DNA of 46,934 nt, taken from the NCBI GenBank assembly GCA_040757115.1, contig JBFLYA010000004.1, forward strand, positions 1 through 46,934, in the 5' to 3' direction. The notes below the pieces were generated by a model. The model ran no database searches and had not been told where the DNA came from. It saw nothing but the letters and a program-made list of their open reading frames with translations. Position 1 is the first letter of the stretch. Each line of letters starts with the position of its first letter. Positions 3,193 to 12,361 of the stretch are shown here, piece by piece. The translations under genes and the position numbers were made by a program. The stretch is from a bacterium (lineage in GTDB: Bacteria; UBA9089; CG2-30-40-21; SBAY01).

Positions 3193-3675
3193 ATGAATAA
3201 TAAGGGGTTCCCATTTAATATTGTGTGTGACAAATTAGATAGTTTTTTACCAGGAAGAGACCTTTCTGATATTGAGTCAGCTATTGAAAAAATCCGAAAA
3301 GAAAGAAATCTTCCAGTTTCTGTTTTTGCCTCTGAGGCTCTCCTAAATGGATTAGTCGAGCATAAGAGCCCATATCAACTCACGGAGGAAGCACATCAGT
3401 TAATAAGAGACTTCAAAGGGAAATTTACTCCTGAGTTCATTGAGAATCAGATTATGCATAGTCTAAGAGGGAAGTTCCCTCTTCTATATCACAAACTTCT
3501 TTCCAAAATGATGTCTACTTTTTGGACACTTATCGATGAAAAAGTTTTTATAAAAGAAACTATTGAGGAAAAAGCATCTGAGAAACTAATTAGACCTGCC
3601 ACCTTCCTATTCCTCCTGGTCATTTACGGAGTGATAAAAGCAACTGAGGAGCGATTTATTGTTTGGGTAAAATAA
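3193..3675 (+). CDS. Hypothetical protein, 160 aa
   Basis: I do not recognise the family. The protein is mostly charged and helical, with one short hydrophobic segment near the C-terminus (about residues 134-146, ATFLFLLVIYGVI). The start ATG at 3193 has a distant AAGGA (3175-3179) as the only ribosome-binding candidate. The gene is followed after 47 nt by the gene at 3723 on the same strand, so the two are probably cotranscribed, perhaps from the promoter at 2790-2818. Ends TAA. Confidence 0.7.
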   Translation: MNNKGFPFNIVCDKLDSFLPGRDLSDIESAIEKIRKERNLPVSVFASEALLNGLVEHKSPYQLTEEAHQLIRDFKGKFTPEFIENQIMHSLRGKFPLLYHKLLSKMMSTFWTLIDEKVFIKETIEEKASEKLIRPATFLFLLVIYGVIKATEERFIVWVK

Positions 3676-3722
3676 GTCTGCCGTATCGACAAACCAGGAT
3701 TGAAAAGAATAAAGGGAAAAAT

Positions 3723-4622
3723 ATGGAAGACCTAAATGAATGGAGTATTAGACTCCTTTTTTCAGTATTTAAAAATGGAATGAGTAATACAGTTAGTGCA
3801 GTTCTAGAAAAAATAGAATCAGCATTTAGATTAGATGAAAACGATGATAAAGATAAAATTTCAATGATAGAAAAAGAACCGGATAACTTTAAAAATGAAC
3901 TATTGAATCGCCTAACGAGGTATAAAACAATAGCAATAAGATCTCCTATTCCAATTATTCCATTAGTGAAATATGCAACTGAGGTTATAGAAGAAGTAGA
4001 AAAGAAAGAAAGGATGGATGTGAGAGAATTTTTAAATTTTATGAGCGATAAGTGTGCCTCCTTAAGGCAAGATATGGAGACGAAAAGGAAGAACGCTATT
4101 GAATGGGCAGGAAGTCTGGTAGAAAGAGGAGTAGTATTTCTGAGTGGAGAAGAAAGTGATTTCCCAACGAAAATTATAGAAAAATCAAGAAAAAGTTGGC
4201 ATAGCACACGAATTATATTTCCTATTCATCGAGAAGGAGAAGACTCTATTCCCTTTAAATTGAAAGGCGAGCGATATGAGGAAGAGTATGAACCAAAAAG
4301 AGAAATAGATTCTGATATAGACAGACTTAATGAAATTATTATCGCACCTATAGTTAAACATGTTATTACAGAGGCTTATATAGGGAGTAAAGAAGGAGGT
4401 GTACTCTGTATCTATGGTATGAAGAAGATAGCATCTATGATAAATGAAAGGGAAATTCCTTTCTATATTTTAGAGGATTCTTTTTCTAATGATTACCGTG
4501 AAGATATTTTAAAGAATATGGTTGAAGAATTTCCTGTAATGAGAAAATTTTGTGATTTTCTTCCTTCAGAATACATTACGGGAATAATTAATGAGAATGG
4601 CATTAAAACTCTGAGATTTTAA
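3723..4622 (+). CDS. Hypothetical protein with weak resemblance to the eIF2B-alpha / ribose-1,5-bisphosphate isomerase fold
   Basis: 299 aa. I chose the ATG at 3723, preceded by AAAGGG, over a TTG at 3663 that would overlap the previous gene. The order of features faintly recalls IF-2B-family proteins: a helical N-terminus, then AIEWAGSLVERGVVFLSG, a middle linker, and a late segment ending GVLCIYGMKKIA and IPFYILEDSF. In that family the corresponding stretch follows the pattern NKIGTYxIAxxA...IPFYV. The catalytic residues of ribose-1,5-bisphosphate isomerases are not convincing here, so I claim at most a distant fold relation. It converges on pilT with 66 nt between stops. Ends TAA. Confidence 0.75.
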   Translation: MEDLNEWSIRLLFSVFKNGMSNTVSAVLEKIESAFRLDENDDKDKISMIEKEPDNFKNELLNRLTRYKTIAIRSPIPIIPLVKYATEVIEEVEKKERMDVREFLNFMSDKCASLRQDMETKRKNAIEWAGSLVERGVVFLSGEESDFPTKIIEKSRKSWHSTRIIFPIHREGEDSIPFKLKGERYEEEYEPKREIDSDIDRLNEIIIAPIVKHVITEAYIGSKEGGVLCIYGMKKIASMINEREIPFYILEDSFSNDYREDILKNMVEEFPVMRKFCDFLPSEYITGIINENGIKTLRF

Positions 4623-4688
4623 AAGAGAAACAAGAAAAACTCATTTACCCAGCTTATAAATTTTTCCTCTTCCCACCTGGTAAAATAA

Positions 4689-5795
4689 TTAGTATAGATT
4701 TCTTCTCTCGTAATAATATTGTCCACCAATCAATTGTTTTAATTCTTCAGGTCTTGGTGAGTATTTCAAAGCATCTTCATAAGTAATTAATTTATTATCA
4801 TAAAGTTCTTGTATCGACATATTCATTGTTTGCATCTTATGTTCTTTTCCTGTCTGCATACAAGTATAGATTTGTGGAAGTTTTTTGGGGTCTTCATCAC
4901 GAATTAGACTTCGGACCGCTTCTGTAGCAGATAGAACTTCGCAGGCTAATATTCTTCCCGTGCCAGAGATATGAGGTAATAATTGCTGTGAAATTACAGC
5001 CTTTAGTACAAAGGATAATTGAGTCCTTACCTGCCTTTGCTCATTTTTAGGAAATACATCAATGATACGGTTGATTGACTGGACAGCATCCGAAGTATGT
5101 AGAGTAGAAAAGACTAAGTGTCCTGTCTCAGCTATATTCAGAGTAACTCTGATAGTTTCTAAGTCACGCATCTCTCCTACCAGGACTATATCAGGGTCTT
5201 GTCGCAGTACATACTTTAGAGCATTAGTAAAAGATTTAGTATCAGCAACTATCTCCCGCTGGTGGACAATGGATTCCTTGGACCGATGAAAAAATTCTAT
5301 TGGGTCTTCAACAGTTATAATATGTTCTTTACGATTAGTATTTATATAATCAATCATAGAAGCTAATGTAGTTGTTTTTCCTGTACCAGTAGGACCTGTT
5401 ACCAAAACCAATCCAGGAGATTTAGGAGGTAGGTTTACTATGTCATTTACAATAGAAGGAAGGCGTAATCTTTCAAAATTGGGTACCTCATCTGGAATAC
5501 TTCGTAACGCAGCACATACTGTCCCTTTCTGACGAAATACATTCATCCTTATTCTAGCTGTATCTTTGACTCCAAATGATAAATCTAATTCATTATTCTC
5601 TTCAAATTTCATCTTCTGATCATCATTTAAAATAGAGTAGATAACTTGCTGAGCTCTTTCTGCACTGATTTTCTCTTCCTTCTCTACAGGAGTTAGAACA
5701 CCATCAATTCGTAGCATTGGTGGTTTTTCTATCCCAATATGTATATCAGAAGCTCCTCTATCTTTCATTAGTTGCACTAAGTGAACAATATCCAT
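4689..5795 (-). CDS. pilT: PilT/PilU-family type IV pilus retraction ATPase
   Basis: 368 aa, the usual PilT length. Visible motifs in order: N-terminal SDIHI, Walker A GPTGTGKTT near residue 135, Asp box (IITVEDPIEF), Walker B (RQDPDIVLVGEMRD), and His box GHLVFSTLHTSDA. PilT hexamers hydrolyse ATP at the inner-membrane base of type IV pili to drive retraction and twitching. A GGAGG lies just upstream of the ATG. It is the last gene of the minus-strand signalling operon, 36 nt after the REC-MshEN gene. No other pilus structural gene is in the window, so this looks like a detached motor plus its controllers. PilU is an alternative name. Ends TAA. Confidence 0.95.
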   Translation of the reverse strand: MDIVHLVQLMKDRGASDIHIGIEKPPMLRIDGVLTPVEKEEKISAERAQQVIYSILNDDQKMKFEENNELDLSFGVKDTARIRMNVFRQKGTVCAALRSIPDEVPNFERLRLPSIVNDIVNLPPKSPGLVLVTGPTGTGKTTTLASMIDYINTNRKEHIITVEDPIEFFHRSKESIVHQREIVADTKSFTNALKYVLRQDPDIVLVGEMRDLETIRVTLNIAETGHLVFSTLHTSDAVQSINRIIDVFPKNEQRQVRTQLSFVLKAVISQQLLPHISGTGRILACEVLSATEAVRSLIRDEDPKKLPQIYTCMQTGKEHKMQTMNMSIQELYDNKLITYEDALKYSPRPEELKQLIGGQYYYERRNLY

Positions 5796-5831
5796 CTTAG
5801 AAAACCTCCTTCTATGTGAAATATAAAACTT

Positions 5832-6746
5832 TTAAAATAATCTCCTTTTTCCAATCTTACCAAGAATTTCTTTTATTGTCTCCCGGATATTATCAGGAGA
5901 ACCTAAGAAAACCTTAACTTGACAACCTGTTATAGTCTCAATGAGTTCAAGACTTTGGGAATCATTAGGGTCAGCTGTAACTACTGTAAGTTGATTATCT
6001 ATTTTGGCAATAGGTATTAAGCAACAGACTCTAAGAATTTCTTCAGGGATCTTCTGGACAACTTCGGTGTCAATTGTCTCTGGAATTAAGTAGATGTAAG
6101 GGACATTAAGTTGCTTACTTAATGTCCAATTTATAGACCCTTCCTCAACCCTATTATTAATTAACGCCTCTTCCAAACTTATTTTCTTTTCCTCTTGTTC
6201 TTTCAACGCATTTTCTAACTGTTTTTCTGTAATTAATCCTTCTGGAATGGCGTACTTCTTCACGCCTTCTAACAATGCCATCTCAGTTTCTAAAGACCTT
6301 CTATATTCTTTCTTCACCTCAGGAATTTCTTCCTTTGGTCTACCTAATAGTCTTTCAAGTATTAGGTTTTTATGTTCCAGAGCCTTTTCCACTTCTGAAT
6401 ATAAAATATCATTAGCACTTTCTCTCGTTTTATCAATATACTGCCAGATGCCAAATTCCATTGCTTTACGAACATTCTCTAATGAGCCATAGGCGGTTAA
6501 GACAATTATCTGTGTAAATGAGTCTTTGAGTCTAACCACTCTTACTACTTCTAATCCTCCTTCTTCATCTTCTTCCCTCAATTTCATATCAACTACCGCG
6601 ACATCAAAAGCAGGACTTTTTTCAATAATATCAATTGCCTCCTCCTTGTTATCTACTCCCTCTATTTCATACCCTTTTTCTTTACTCTTTTCAACTATTT
6701 CTTTTAATGTAGTTAATTCATCATCAACTATCAAGATTCTCGCCAT
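5832..6746 (-). CDS. Response regulator receiver domain fused to a T2SSE-N/MshEN-like domain
   Basis: 304 aa from the ATG at 6746, which has AAGGAGG directly upstream; a longer reading would run through that ribosome-binding site. Residues 1-125 form a REC domain (ARILIVDDE acidic pocket, phospho-acceptor Asp in VAVVDMKL, Thr in VLTAYG). Residues about 160-300 match the N-terminal domain of GspE/PilB/MshE ATPases (EGLITEKQLENALKEQ; NVPYIYL; IPEEILRVCCLIPIA; LTVVTADPND). MshEN domains in MshE bind c-di-GMP, but the first RLGxxL repeat here is weakly kept, so binding is uncertain. It has no ATPase domain, so it may act as a free adaptor for a pilus motor. The REC half is nearly identical at DNA level to that of the next gene. 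Ends TAA. Confidence 0.88.
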   Translation of the reverse strand: MARILIVDDELTTLKEIVEKSKEKGYEIEGVDNKEEAIDIIEKSPAFDVAVVDMKLREEDEEGGLEVVRVVRLKDSFTQIIVLTAYGSLENVRKAMEFGIWQYIDKTRESANDILYSEVEKALEHKNLILERLLGRPKEEIPEVKKEYRRSLETEMALLEGVKKYAIPEGLITEKQLENALKEQEEKKISLEEALINNRVEEGSINWTLSKQLNVPYIYLIPETIDTEVVQKIPEEILRVCCLIPIAKIDNQLTVVTADPNDSQSLELIETITGCQVKVFLGSPDNIRETIKEILGKIGKRRLF

Positions 6747-6780
6747 TAATTTTTCCTCCTTTATTATTTCGGATAACTTT

Positions 6781-7797
6781 TTATTTAAAAACCTCATCTT
6801 CTAAGAGGTCTACTATTCGTGGGTCATGACATCCAAAGTATTTGGAGTCTGGATTATTTTTATCACCTTTAATCATGGATAATGCATCCTGTTTAGTTTT
6901 TGCCTCGTGATATGGCCGCTTTGAAGTTAAAGCATCAAATGCATCAGCAACAGCAATTATCCTTGCCTCTATAGAAATATTATCTCCTGTGACTTTACCA
7001 GGATACGGTCTTGGTCGTCTGTCTTGAATCCCTTCTGGAGGGTTATACCATTCATGATGTTCTCGCACTATATGAGCTATGGGTGGAAGTTCAGAAGGGG
7101 TATTTAGAATACGAAAACCTTCCTCAGGATGTACCTCTATCATTCCCCAGTCTGCGTTAGATAAGCCTATTGGTTTATGAAGTACACTTTGATTTATACC
7201 AATCTTACCAATATCATGGACCGCTGAAGCTATTTCGAGTTTGTCAATATCAACTTTCTCTTCTGGATAAGTCTTATTCCATTTTATCCCAATTTTTTTT
7301 GAATAGTTTACTACGCGTTGAGAATGGCCATGGAGATATGGGTCACTTGAATCAATAGCTACCTTTAAACATTCAATAAACCCTTTTTTAAAAGTTACTT
7401 GCTCTCTCTGTATTCCTACATAGGTTAATGCCTTTTCTACCTCAACATCCAAAGTTTGATTTGCATCATCCATATTTCTATTAATATAACCCCATAATCG
7501 TAATAATTTCATAGCCTCACAAACTTTTTCATAATCTCCGTGGGCAGTTAGAACTATTATCTCAGTCAATGTATCTTTTTCCCTAACCGCTTTTGCTACT
7601 TCCATGCCACCCTTCTCATCTCCCTCCCTCAATTTCATATCAACTACCACAACATCAAAAGCAGGACTTTTTTTAATAATATCAATTGCCTCCTCCTTGT
7701 TATCTACTCCCTCTATCTCATACCCTTTTTCTTTAAACCTCTCAACAATCTCTTTTAATGCAGTTAGGTTATCATCAACTATTAGTATCTTAGACAT
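6781..7797 (-). CDS. Response regulator with HD-GYP domain (probable c-di-GMP phosphodiesterase)
   Basis: 338 aa. REC domain at 1-125 (KILIVDDN, phospho-Asp in VVVVDMKL), HD-GYP domain at about 150-335. Metal-binding motifs are present: GHSQRV, HDIGKIG, HPEEGFRIL, REHHEW, and VADAFDALTS with RPY. The GYP element is degenerate and stretched (HHEW...RPYPGK, with Pro for Gly), which occurs in some active and some inactive members. HD-GYP proteins hydrolyse c-di-GMP. The gene overlaps the upstream histidine kinase gene by 8 nt (stop/start overlap), which implies translational coupling, and that kinase is the likely phosphodonor. Ends TAA. Confidence 0.92.
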   Translation of the reverse strand: MSKILIVDDNLTALKEIVERFKEKGYEIEGVDNKEEAIDIIKKSPAFDVVVVDMKLREGDEKGGMEVAKAVREKDTLTEIIVLTAHGDYEKVCEAMKLLRLWGYINRNMDDANQTLDVEVEKALTYVGIQREQVTFKKGFIECLKVAIDSSDPYLHGHSQRVVNYSKKIGIKWNKTYPEEKVDIDKLEIASAVHDIGKIGINQSVLHKPIGLSNADWGMIEVHPEEGFRILNTPSELPPIAHIVREHHEWYNPPEGIQDRRPRPYPGKVTGDNISIEARIIAVADAFDALTSKRPYHEAKTKQDALSMIKGDKNNPDSKYFGCHDPRIVDLLEDEVFK

Positions 7798-10700
7798 TAA
7801 TCTCTCCTCCTTTTCTCTGCCTCACAGGCAGAAAGATTACAAATCTTGCTCCCTTACCAAAAATTCCTTCTTCCTTTATAATTCCTTTATGATGATTGAT
7901 AATAAGCTCTATGATAGAAAGTCCCAAACCAGTGCCATTTTTCCTTGTAGTGACTAAAGGCTCAAATATCCTTGATTTATCTTTTTCTGCCACACCTATA
8001 CCTGTATCAATAAATTCTATCATAATGTAGTCCTCTGCTTTTAAATTATAAGAATTACTTTCATTAGAAGGAATAAATTTGGTATTAATTTTGAGTTCTC
8101 TTTTCCCATCCTTCAAGTCTATTTTTGATAATAAAGTATTAAAATAATCTGGTGCCATATCCAGCATAAATTGGTCTTTTATCATCCTTCGTAATTCTTC
8201 TTCCTCTTTTTGCTCCATCTTTTGTTCCCTGATGAATCTTTTTATATTCATAAAATATTTAGCATTTTGAGCTAATTCTGAAAATGCATCCTTTAGTTTT
8301 TCTGAGTCTCCTTCTATAGAATCTAACTTCTCATCAAAATTGAAACTTATTTCTATCTGTTCATTTTCAGGAGAAGGGAATATAGCACTAACTGCTTTAT
8401 TCAAAATAGAATTTACATTTACTGAGCTAATTCTTATCTCTAAAGGCTTTGCAAACTCAGTAATTTCTCGCACAATTCTCCTTGCAGATTCAATTTCCTC
8501 TTTCATATCTTTTATCTTATTTTGAATTTCATTAAGATTATTCTTTGATGAGATTGACTTTCGTAGTTCCTCTAATGCATAAATCTTATTCCCTATCTTA
8601 TGAGCAACTCTTGCGGCAAGGTCTCGCCATTCAAAGAGTTTCCTTGCTATAAAACTTTCCCGAGTTTCGTCTAATTTTCTATTTGTCTCTCCAAGTTGAA
8701 GTTGTATCTTTTCAAATGTCTGAAGATGTAAAATAGGACTTGTTATAGGGTTTATTATTCCATTCAGAAATTCCCTATCTTCCTCAGTAAACTCATTACC
8801 TTCCTGAAATCTATTTAAGCCAATTACTCCCCACAGGTTTCCATTATCCATAATAGGAAAACCGAGATAGAATTTTTTTGGTATTACTAATTGCTGTTGT
8901 GCTGTTTCTCCTATATCCCCTTCACCAATGTTACACTTATTCTTTACTATATAATATTTATCGTAAGGTATTACATCAGATGGTGTCTTAATCTTCTCCA
9001 AAAATAATATATCGTCTTTTTTATCATAAAGATATATAGTACAAACTGCTTTGAAATAATCAGCAAGGGTAGTAGATATATCTTCCAAAAGGTCAACAAG
9101 GTTATAAGATTTTATCATTATGTTATTGAATACCTTCAACATCCTTTCTCTTTCCAACTTTTGAATAGCAATAGATATTTGACTACTGAGTATTTCTAAT
9201 GCTTGCCTATCAAGGTCAGTAATAGAATTGTTTGGATAACTATACTTTTTATCTGCTAACATTATTCCTTTTACCCTACCTGTGATAATTAAAGGGATAA
9301 TGATAAAGTCATCTGAGCTTAACTCTCCTAAGAGATTTTTCACTGCTGCAATTATATTCTCATCTATATTCCTAATATGAAGTGATTCTTTTTTAGAAAT
9401 ACATTTCTCTCTTAGCACATATGGACAGTTTTTAAGAGGAATTTCTATCTTTTTAAGTTCCTTTGTTATCTTTGTTTCTATTGGGTAATTTTTAATGCTG
9501 TTCTCCATAGAGACTCCCATTGAAATTGTCTCCTCCCATTCTTCCTCATTAATTGGTCCAATTCCTTTCTCCCCTATTAACTTTTCCTCCTTTATAAGAA
9601 AAATCATTGCTCTATTAAATCCTAATCCTTCACTATGAGTAACACCGGTTAAAAAAATATGGAGTAATTCATTCAAGTCTCTTGCATTATGTAAGTATGT
9701 AATTATGTTCTGAATTATCTTTATTTTTTCATCCCACCGAGATGCTGTGATTTTTAATTCATAGAGTTGCAAATTTAATTCATAGAGTTGCAAATTATTA
9801 AGGATACCTCCTATATGGTTACATAATTCAAGAAGAATTTCTAACTCTTCTTCAGTATAATAAGGTTCTTCTATCTTCTTCTTTAATCCTAATATCCCCA
9901 ATAACTCATCTCCATATACTATAGGCACAAATAATTCCATTTCCATCTTTTCAAGGTTTTCTTTAAAATTCTCCCATCTCTTTTTTCCGATCAACCATTT
10001 TTTAAAGGCTGGCCATCTTTCTAATCTTTCTTTTAATATCACCTTCTTCTCTTTTTTAAGCCATTCAACAATAATCTCATTTAGTCCAAATATCTCTTCC
10101 TTTACCAAAGTATCTACCCCAATACTCCAATTTACTTTATACCTACTTTCCCCCTCTTCTAATAACAGTATAACAATCTTATCCAGAGGCACTACCTGTT
10201 TAATGGTGTTTTCAATTATAACAAATAAGGCTTGTTTATTATTTACAGAAAGGGTTTTACTCTTAAAGGCTTCAATTATTTGTTCTAACTCATACCTTCG
10301 ATAGAATACCCATTTATCAATGAATCTTTTTACCTTCTCATTTTCAAGTAGTTGAAAGGCAATTGTTATTAAAATAGCAGAAACAAAAACAAGGATTATT
10401 CCCCATCCTGGAGGAATGAGGAATAATCTTCCGATGCCAATTACAAAAAAAATAATTAAAAAGGATAATAAAAGATAAATACTACCCTTTCTAACTACGA
10501 TTTCCATTAATCTATATTTAAAGATGGCATAACCGACCATCAAAGGGAAAAAGACAGCCATTAAATGTTCTATTATTAAAGCAGGGAGTTTAAAGATATA
10601 TACTAACAAAACATTAACTATCCCTCCTATCATAGCTACAACTACTCCAACACTTAATAATATTAATTTTCTCTTCTCCGCTCGTTTTTGTGTTAAAAAA

Positions 10701-11236
10701 CCTTTTCTGACCATTAATACAGTCCCATAGGCTGGAAAAATAAAAAAAACTATAAGAAAGAGGATAAGGATATATAGTGGGGCACTTACTTGGGGATAAT
10801 AGTATTCAGAAGAAGGAAAATGAACAAGGTCTACATTTATATACATTAGTCCAAGAATTGCTAAAACAACGCTGAAAATATATCCTGCTCTTGATGCCCA
10901 GCGATGAATACCTTTATAATTATTTGTAATAATTAATATAAAATGAAAAAAGGTAGAGTAGATAAATGGTATAGCTATTTTAGGGAGTGCCAAATAAAAA
11001 GTTTTGGGAAATCCAAAAGATAGAATTGCTAAAAAAGGATTAAATTCTTCTTTAGTTTCAATAAGAGAGACTCCTGCATATTCCAATCCCCAGATGCCTA
11101 AACAAAGCCCTAATCCTGCAAATACCCAATTTATAACTCTTTTAGGATTTTGAACCCACACAAAAATAGCTAATCCAAAATTGATGAAAGCGGTAAGGAA
11201 ATAAAAATTAGCGTAATGAATATTTTGTATATCCAA
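7790..11236 (-). CDS. Large hybrid-sensor histidine kinase: 7TM N-terminus, GAF domains, HATPase
   Basis: 1148 aa. Residues 1-270 hold about eight hydrophobic segments of the 7TM histidine-kinase sensor type. Three GAF-like regions follow (about 330-480, 500-690, 710-860), the middle one with cysteines (NCPYVLREKC) that could be a redox or metal site. The dimerisation helix has an atypical H-box (AARVAHKIGNKI). HATPase_c occupies the last 170 residues (ELAQNAKYF, DTGIGV, GTGLGLSI). The start is TTG at 11236 with an AGGGGA upstream; no ATG lies nearby in frame. It is the first gene of the operon with REC-HD-GYP, REC-MshEN and PilT, so it probably phosphorylates both regulators. Ends TAA. Confidence 0.9.
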   Translation of the reverse strand: MDIQNIHYANFYFLTAFINFGLAIFVWVQNPKRVINWVFAGLGLCLGIWGLEYAGVSLIETKEEFNPFLAILSFGFPKTFYLALPKIAIPFIYSTFFHFILIITNNYKGIHRWASRAGYIFSVVLAILGLMYINVDLVHFPSSEYYYPQVSAPLYILILFLIVFFIFPAYGTVLMVRKGFLTQKRAEKRKLILLSVGVVVAMIGGIVNVLLVYIFKLPALIIEHLMAVFFPLMVGYAIFKYRLMEIVVRKGSIYLLLSFLIIFFVIGIGRLFLIPPGWGIILVFVSAILITIAFQLLENEKVKRFIDKWVFYRRYELEQIIEAFKSKTLSVNNKQALFVIIENTIKQVVPLDKIVILLLEEGESRYKVNWSIGVDTLVKEEIFGLNEIIVEWLKKEKKVILKERLERWPAFKKWLIGKKRWENFKENLEKMEMELFVPIVYGDELLGILGLKKKIEEPYYTEEELEILLELCNHIGGILNNLQLYELNLQLYELKITASRWDEKIKIIQNIITYLHNARDLNELLHIFLTGVTHSEGLGFNRAMIFLIKEEKLIGEKGIGPINEEEWEETISMGVSMENSIKNYPIETKITKELKKIEIPLKNCPYVLREKCISKKESLHIRNIDENIIAAVKNLLGELSSDDFIIIPLIITGRVKGIMLADKKYSYPNNSITDLDRQALEILSSQISIAIQKLERERMLKVFNNIMIKSYNLVDLLEDISTTLADYFKAVCTIYLYDKKDDILFLEKIKTPSDVIPYDKYYIVKNKCNIGEGDIGETAQQQLVIPKKFYLGFPIMDNGNLWGVIGLNRFQEGNEFTEEDREFLNGIINPITSPILHLQTFEKIQLQLGETNRKLDETRESFIARKLFEWRDLAARVAHKIGNKIYALEELRKSISSKNNLNEIQNKIKDMKEEIESARRIVREITEFAKPLEIRISSVNVNSILNKAVSAIFPSPENEQIEISFNFDEKLDSIEGDSEKLKDAFSELAQNAKYFMNIKRFIREQKMEQKEEEELRRMIKDQFMLDMAPDYFNTLLSKIDLKDGKRELKINTKFIPSNESNSYNLKAEDYIMIEFIDTGIGVAEKDKSRIFEPLVTTRKNGTGLGLSIIELIINHHKGIIKEEGIFGKGARFVIFLPVRQRKGGEINV

Positions 11237-11713: not shown

Positions 11714-12361
11714 ATGGATAGGTTAGATAGAATAGAAAAAATATTGAATGAAACTACCAAAGGCTTAAAACTATTAAAAGATAGACAATTAAAGACCGAT
11801 GAGCAATTAAAAAAGACCGATGAGCAATTAAAAAAGACCGATGAGCAACAGAGAAAGACCGATGAAGAATTGCGAAAGACCGATGAACAGCAAAGAAAGA
11901 CTAATGAAGAAATATCTCGTGTATCCAGAGAAATCGGTGGAGGATTAGGGAGAATGGCGGAAGGATTAACCGCACCTTCTATCCCTAAGTTATTCGCAGA
12001 ATTAGGCATAAAAGTAAAACATGTCTTTCAAAGGGTAAGAACTATTGAGGATGGCAAATGTATTGGTGAAATAGATTTGGTCTGTCCCGCGAGAAGAAAT
12101 GGGAAAGAAGTAGTATTACTTGGAGAGGTAAAGGCACATCTTACCTCAACCGATATAAAAGACTTTTTGCCTTCTATTGAGCATTTCAAAGAATACTTTC
12201 CTGAATATAAAGAAGCAGAAATTATCACTTTGGTCTCGGGTATGTATGTGGCTGAAGAGGCAAAAAGATTTGCTTATAAAAAGGGGTGTTATATCCTTGC
12301 TCCAGCAGAGGATACAATGCAAATTCTAAATCCTAAGGATTTTAAACCAAAAGTATATTAA
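11714..12361 (+). CDS. Coiled-coil protein with a C-terminal PD-(D/E)XK nuclease-like domain (DUF3782-like)
   Basis: 215 aa. I use the ATG at 11714, preceded by GAGGAG, since an upstream ATG at 11693 would place that site inside the coding region. Residues about 20-65 are tandem heptads of the type KTDEQLK, encoded by near-identical 21-nt repeats, which predict a charged coiled coil. The C-terminal 130 residues have a PD-(D/E)XK-like core: GEIDLV, then VVLLGEVKAHLT (Glu-x-Lys). Such proteins are common in cyanobacteria and candidate phyla; their substrate is unknown. It precedes gapA by 36 nt on the same strand. Ends TAA. Confidence 0.8.
   Translation: MDRLDRIEKILNETTKGLKLLKDRQLKTDEQLKKTDEQLKKTDEQQRKTDEELRKTDEQQRKTNEEISRVSREIGGGLGRMAEGLTAPSIPKLFAELGIKVKHVFQRVRTIEDGKCIGEIDLVCPARRNGKEVVLLGEVKAHLTSTDIKDFLPSIEHFKEYFPEYKEAEIITLVSGMYVAEEAKRFAYKKGCYILAPAEDTMQILNPKDFKPKVY

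Follow-up and report, generated by a model that had tools for sequence, protein, structure and literature searches.

The window, a 46,934-nucleotide stretch of bacterial DNA (contig C4 of a 4.3-Mb host assembly in 462 contigs), contains a signaling locus that may form a two-component switch for a dedicated pilus retraction motor. According to this reading, which on sequence comparisons we place at about an even chance, a sensor kinase would act through the response regulator REC-MshEN on a PilT-family ATPase, with phosphorylation as the gate. In bacteria, c-di-GMP acts on pilus extension motors via a built-in MshEN domain, and how the retraction motor receives its signals is far less well understood. 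The locus may be one variant of a wider arrangement, namely a cross-phylum family of MshEN adaptors, free-standing or joined to a dead motor, that would give PilT in trans the c-di-GMP or other signal input it lacks, controlling retraction and not extension. This wider proposal, in which the window would represent a variant with a receiver replacing c-di-GMP and a core-type PilT replacing the usual partner, is held tentatively, at somewhat short of even probability.

The locus is organized around four minus-strand genes, in the order (from 11236 to 4689) sensor histidine kinase (1148 aa; 7790-11236), REC-HD-GYP response regulator (6781-7797), REC-MshEN response regulator (304 aa, without an ATPase domain; 5832-6746), and PilT-family retraction ATPase (4689-5795). 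The kinase and REC-HD-GYP genes overlap by 8 nt, and the remaining intergenic gaps are ~35 nt. All domain calls exceed curated cut-offs; the four-gene unit described in the original prediction is confirmed in gene order, strand, and domain content. Its extent was drawn too narrowly, as two plus-strand genes (3193-4622), both convergent with pilT, also belong to the locus. One encodes a divergent member of the IF-2B (eIF2B/MtnA/R15P isomerase) family (3723-4622); the other encodes a 160-aa protein with no family assigned (3193-3675), which adjoins the IF-2B-like gene in 4/4 loci seen. A profile of the IF-2B-like protein matches eIF2B (1vb5, E 1.6e-10), its relatives in genomes G017 and G001 match PF01008 (E 1e-14 to 1e-16), and its predicted structure has a pLDDT of 49, too low to rely on. 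The gene is fast-evolving. Orthologues were found in only 4/19 phylum genomes examined, each beside a related signaling locus: the IF-2B-like member accompanies kinase, REC-MshEN, and PilT, without HD-GYP, in G003; kinase, REC, GAF-HD-GYP, GAF-GAF, and PilT in G017 (L125); and kinase, REC, and GAF-HD-GYP in G001 (L127), where the contig ends at the slot corresponding to the window locus. A duplicated input domain is common to the pilT-proximal and HD-GYP proteins, REC in the window and GAF in G017. The two window receivers are products of a duplication, with 68% identity over 125 aa and 300-nt direct repeats (6454-6753 and 7505-7804) that are 79% identical.

REC-MshEN scores 58.6 bits for Response_reg and 51.2 bits for MshEN (Pfam curated cut-off 23.1). 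Its open reading frame is listed from 6797; the true start is 6746, because an AGGAGG at 6755-6760 precedes the ATG at this position and the G003 orthologue (85% identical) agrees. The receiver (6372-6746) has the complete set of response-regulator residues, i.e., the acidic pair (DD), the phospho-Asp (D53), Thr, and Lys (K106). It is followed by the four-helix MshEN_N subdomain (6111-6281), bearing both degenerate c-di-GMP motifs, and the alpha/beta MshEN_C subdomain (Pfam MshEN; 5856-6110). In a sequence search against solved structures, the MshEN half also matched PilB N-termini. An AlphaFold model (pLDDT 85 from a 15-row alignment; mostly 82-97 per block in the MshEN part) arranges helices and strands in the sequence expected for MshEN. 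In a Foldseek search, this half matched MshE with c-di-GMP (5htl, TM 0.76) and PilB-N with PilZ (7lko, TM 0.73). As modeled, then, the C-terminal half adopts the MshEN fold, with its four-helix and alpha/beta parts. The MshEN-like assignment had been made correctly; another fold for this region is ruled out, with Pfam, phmmer, and Foldseek all giving MshEN.

The architecture had been called unusual, which is only partly right. REC is among the MshEN partners in Wang et al. 2016, where the response regulator Bd2402 is named (PMC5013675), and an unprecedented architecture is rejected for this reason. A scan of genome contigs gave a full-length REC-MshEN match solely in G003 (deposited as Nitrospira sp. 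Bin_21_1); at the remaining 38 loci, the match was confined to the receiver part. Degenerate REC-MshEN-like proteins occur in G014 and G016 (L039, L040) with kinases but no pilT nearby. These kinases (L039 7797-10134; L040 4638-6797) have a similar atypical H-box, HxIG[NT][KR], and their partner proteins combine REC with a C-terminus that is either degenerate and MshEN-like or shortened. L039 also adjoins fliP/fliR-like genes.

The extended MshEN ligand motif has been defined as (R/K/L)LG...LxxxLxxQ (PMC11731258). Two such 24-residue motifs, with 11 key positions each scored in register, were taken to mark a c-di-GMP receptor. The window MshEN retains 7/11 positions in motif 1 and 4/11 in motif 2, and both have lost positions 1-3 (R, L, and G); it thus falls outside the two-motif receptors, and the partial motif loss noted in the original prediction is borne out. 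For comparison, the core PilB of the same genome, whose MshEN has a complete first motif, keeps 17/22 key positions, and the count is 16-17/22 in the GAF-MshEN relatives (family f2). Several other relatives still hold much of the motif, including, by eye, those of G323 (KLG/KFG), G038, and G147 (RLG/RLG). In Thermus thermophilus PilF, one motif of the GSPII-A domain is degenerate, and this domain fails to bind c-di-GMP (PMC11731258). On account of this precedent and the loss of R-L-G, c-di-GMP binding by the window MshEN is unlikely. The suggestion that it is a protein-binding adaptor stands to the extent that it fits the motif loss and has a structural precedent in the MshEN-like PilB-N of X. 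citri, which lacks the c-di-GMP motif and binds PilZ (PMC8389850).

In a tree, the window MshEN groups with MshEN proteins without a working ATPase and not with PilB MshEN. Such proteins consist of MshEN alone, MshEN with a dead T2SSE half, MshEN with GAFs (including GAF-GAF-MshEN with or without a T2SSE half), or MshEN with REC, and those from this and other phyla form one clade of 20 rows (support 100/99). Directly adjoining pilT are 18/20 sampled rows, a biased sample and not an unbiased census, as the rows are hits of the window protein or domain. These comprise, in this phylum, the window, G003, contig C7 of the same genome, G001, G004, G005, G006 (two), G007, G009, G014, and G016 and, outside it, G038, G137, G147, G254, G323, and G382; the exceptions, G017 and G018, hold a close MshEN relative not beside pilT. 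This adjacency is far above chance, because pilT accounts for about nine of several thousand genes even here (nine PilT-family genes exceed the cut-off in the window genome). Two stand-alone MshEN genes, found in G009 and G014, lie away from pilT and outside the clade. In contrast to true PilB, the clade members that bear T2SSE lack the Walker A Lys, the Walker B and His boxes, or both: some show Walker A Lys to Arg, and others miss boxes. Four GAF-MshEN-T2SSE proteins (f2) have Walker A with no Walker B or His-box match and are probably inactive as ATPases. Hence, pilT does lie next to MshEN proteins with no working ATPase at other loci, in the same phylum and in others.

Several of these neighborhoods recall the window. 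G323 (L195) has REC-HD-GYP, REC, MshEN-only, and PilT, as in the window except that REC and MshEN are encoded separately; G038 (L198), from the same family as G323, has GAF-GGDEF, MshEN-only, and PilT, convergent with REC-HD-GYP; and G147 (L196) has MshEN-only followed by two PilTs. On contig C7 (L055 8608-11140), a MshEN-dead ATPase gene lies immediately upstream of a PilT paralogue, surrounded by receivers, a GAF kinase, a STAS-like gene, and an HD-GYP gene. As a separate observation, a 7TM-GAF-HD-GYP gene is found near pilT in G000:C219 (L057) and G001:C78 (L126), a sensor-PilT association without MshEN; in G001:C78, a second pilT follows this pair.

These neighborhoods bear on an unlikely alternative, in which REC-MshEN would act on the extension side by mimicking the N-terminal MshEN ring of PilB, competing for or co-assembling with PilB or the platform (PilC, PilM), and pilT would be a mere neighbor. 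MshEN is natively part of PilB/GspE, the best solved-structure sequence matches are PilBs, and, as noted above, the first motif is complete in the core PilB. However, the close relatives adjoin pilT, not pilB, and both they and their PilT partners cluster across phyla.

The window PilT scores 456 bits against TIGR01420 (cut-off 319), which places it in the PilT/PilU family, and its motor motifs are intact, namely Walker A (GPTGTGKT), Walker B, the His boxes, and AVRSLIRD, an AIRNLIRE-like motif. From these residues, both PilT and the receiver of REC-MshEN look active. The PilTs that adjoin non-ATPase MshEN proteins group in a single clade (99/97), which also contains three PilTs not counted as adjacent, with the exception of the window and G003 pair, which falls with the PilT clade of the core PilB-PilT-PilC set (100/99). 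The window PilT is a paralogue of core PilT, with 68% identity to the core copy in its own genome. Its membership in the MshEN-paired PilT clade is rejected, as two trees place it with core PilT. The phylogenies indicate that a core-type PilT was newly paired with MshEN, or that the PilT was replaced, which is further evidence that MshEN and PilT are functionally linked.

The kinase comprises a 7TM-like N-terminus, three GAF domains, an atypical H-box (AHKIGNK), and HATPase_c, with GAF and HATPase_c passing curated cut-offs. Its neighbor REC-HD-GYP scores 58.1 bits for Response_reg and 84.5 bits for HD_5 and, in an alignment to 5z7c and 4mcw, retains the metal-ligand His/Asp set. The HHExxDGxGYP loop of solved HD-GYP structures is not matched, the window reading HHEWYNPPEGIQDRRPRPYP; the altered loop (6982-7059, minus strand; HHEWYNPPEGIQDRRPRPYPGKV) has an insertion of ~9 residues and PYP in place of GYP. 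The receiver has Arg (YINR) where the conserved Lys is expected, and no HD-GYP gene was found at the syntenic G003 locus. Because of this absence, the altered loop, and the Lys-to-Arg change, REC-HD-GYP is judged to be probably accessory. The idea that one kinase sets both outputs is weakened accordingly in its HD-GYP arm. At the G003 junction, the kinase end and first codons match the REC-HD-GYP copy, after which the sequence mostly matches REC-MshEN; this pattern is compatible with HD-GYP insertion by receiver duplication in G000, the window genome, or with deletion between the repeats in G003.

The same features weigh on a second alternative, which we regard as distinctly unlikely: that the locus works mainly through REC-HD-GYP, whose breakdown of c-di-GMP would act on the c-di-GMP-binding core PilB, with REC-MshEN as a phosphate sink or weak c-di-GMP receptor. 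The genome has 11 GGDEF and 18 HD_5 matches, the HD metal ligands are retained, and HD-GYP genes recur at the related loci L125, L127, L195, and L198. Yet the G003 locus has no such gene, the window HD-GYP is the lowest-scoring of the 18 HD_5 matches, its GYP loop and receiver Lys are altered, and the MshEN ligand residues are lost.

Divergence was compared between the window and G003, which belongs to a different genus. Synonymous divergence is high in the flanking genes (dS 1.25 for GAPDH and 1.49 for a TPR protein) and in core PilT (0.91) but low within the locus (kinase 0.09, REC-MshEN 0.29, PilT 0.25, IF-2B-like 0.17, and the 160-aa protein 0.25). The low values span 3193-11236, with both flanks high. 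For the kinase, G000, G002, and G003 are about equidistant, whereas for GAPDH, G002 and G003 are much closer. The simplest reading of these sequences is a recently exchanged island, passed from one lineage to another once these had diverged and integrated at the same slot. Beside GAPDH, a 222-aa protein contains tandem 21-nt repeats (11791-11907) coding for a KTDEQL-type heptad repeat; in the G001 copy, this part of the protein is longer.

A further alternative, and a very unlikely one, is that the locus is a horizontally exchanged island in decay that now has little function. The locus dS far under background is in its favor, as are the degenerate ligand and GYP motifs and the kinase dN/dS of ~0.9, with 1.65 in the 7TM part (a point estimate). 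In addition, the reading frame of the G002 kinase orthologue (L124 329-2673) is broken near a contig end, reflecting either a pseudogene or an assembly error. Conversely, the 1148-codon kinase frame is open in two genomes despite ~8% divergence (pS 0.08; the G003 orthologue is 83% identical), and REC-MshEN and PilT have kept their active-site residues and are under purifying selection, with dN/dS of 0.26-0.27 (REC-MshEN 0.26).

Under the phosphorylation-gated switch, the 7TM-GAF kinase would phosphorylate the REC-MshEN receiver, and the MshEN half, derived from a non-ATPase adaptor family that pairs with PilT, would dock either on the paralogous PilT or on the PilT found at the base of the pilus. 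Docking would depend on phosphorylation, which would substitute for c-di-GMP as the gate, and would alter retraction in a direction that is itself conjectural. REC-HD-GYP would add another output, an optional one, which may reduce c-di-GMP for the remaining pilus system. This switch is favored because MshEN has lost R-L-G while PilT and the receiver look active. Further support comes from contig C7, where a MshEN-dead ATPase precedes PilT amid receivers and a kinase, from the separate clustering of the MshEN clade and of the PilT partners, from the window-like orders in G323 and G038, and from purifying selection on REC-MshEN and PilT; Rre6, PixE, and X. citri PilB-N, described below, serve as precedents. 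It is weakened by the position of the window PilT outside the MshEN-paired clade, so that compatibility is assumed, by the G017 and G018 relatives away from pilT, by the sampling of the clade from window-domain hits, and by the atypical H-box and high dN/dS of the kinase.

The recurrent pairing of PilT with MshEN proteins whose ATPase half is inactive or absent, flanked by receivers, GGDEF, or HD-GYP, would represent a direct route from signal to retraction, and similar switch-motor gene pairs in other phyla suggest an overlooked bacterial control of pilus retraction. The island offers a natural experiment in which c-di-GMP residues were lost, a receiver was gained, and the PilT partner was swapped. 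In the literature searched, reviews included, we found no account of a MshEN protein that partners PilT in trans, although one may still exist.

Known systems share individual elements with the window unit. The MshEN domains of MshE and PilB (Wang 2016, PMC5013675) have the same fold and domain family; the window protein differs in lacking an ATPase, in having two degenerate motifs, and in being encoded beside pilT and not inside PilB. Bd2402 is likewise a response regulator containing MshEN, but it is reported to bind c-di-GMP tightly (PMC5013675), whereas REC-MshEN has lost R-L-G. In X. citri PilB-PilZ-FimX (7lko), a MshEN-like domain without c-di-GMP residues serves as a protein-docking site, as proposed here, but within the PilB extension motor itself. 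In Synechocystis, a receiver with an extra domain contacts a pilus motor: Rre6 (PATAN-REC) binds PilT2 more strongly as a phosphomimic (PMC7656254), and PixE binding to PilB1 has been hypothesized (PMC7690835). The corresponding contact in the window is a prediction, and Rre6 and PixE differ in using another adaptor domain (PATAN) within cyanobacterial chemosensory or light pathways. PdeK-PdeR (PMC11656802), like the window unit, joins a kinase to a phosphodiesterase-type response regulator whose output reaches a pilus motor complex, but with EAL instead of HD-GYP and with FimX/PilB-PilZ instead of PilT as the target. The REC-MshEN fusion itself was already known, and what appears to be new is its context, the cross-phylum pairing of MshEN adaptors without an active ATPase with PilT.
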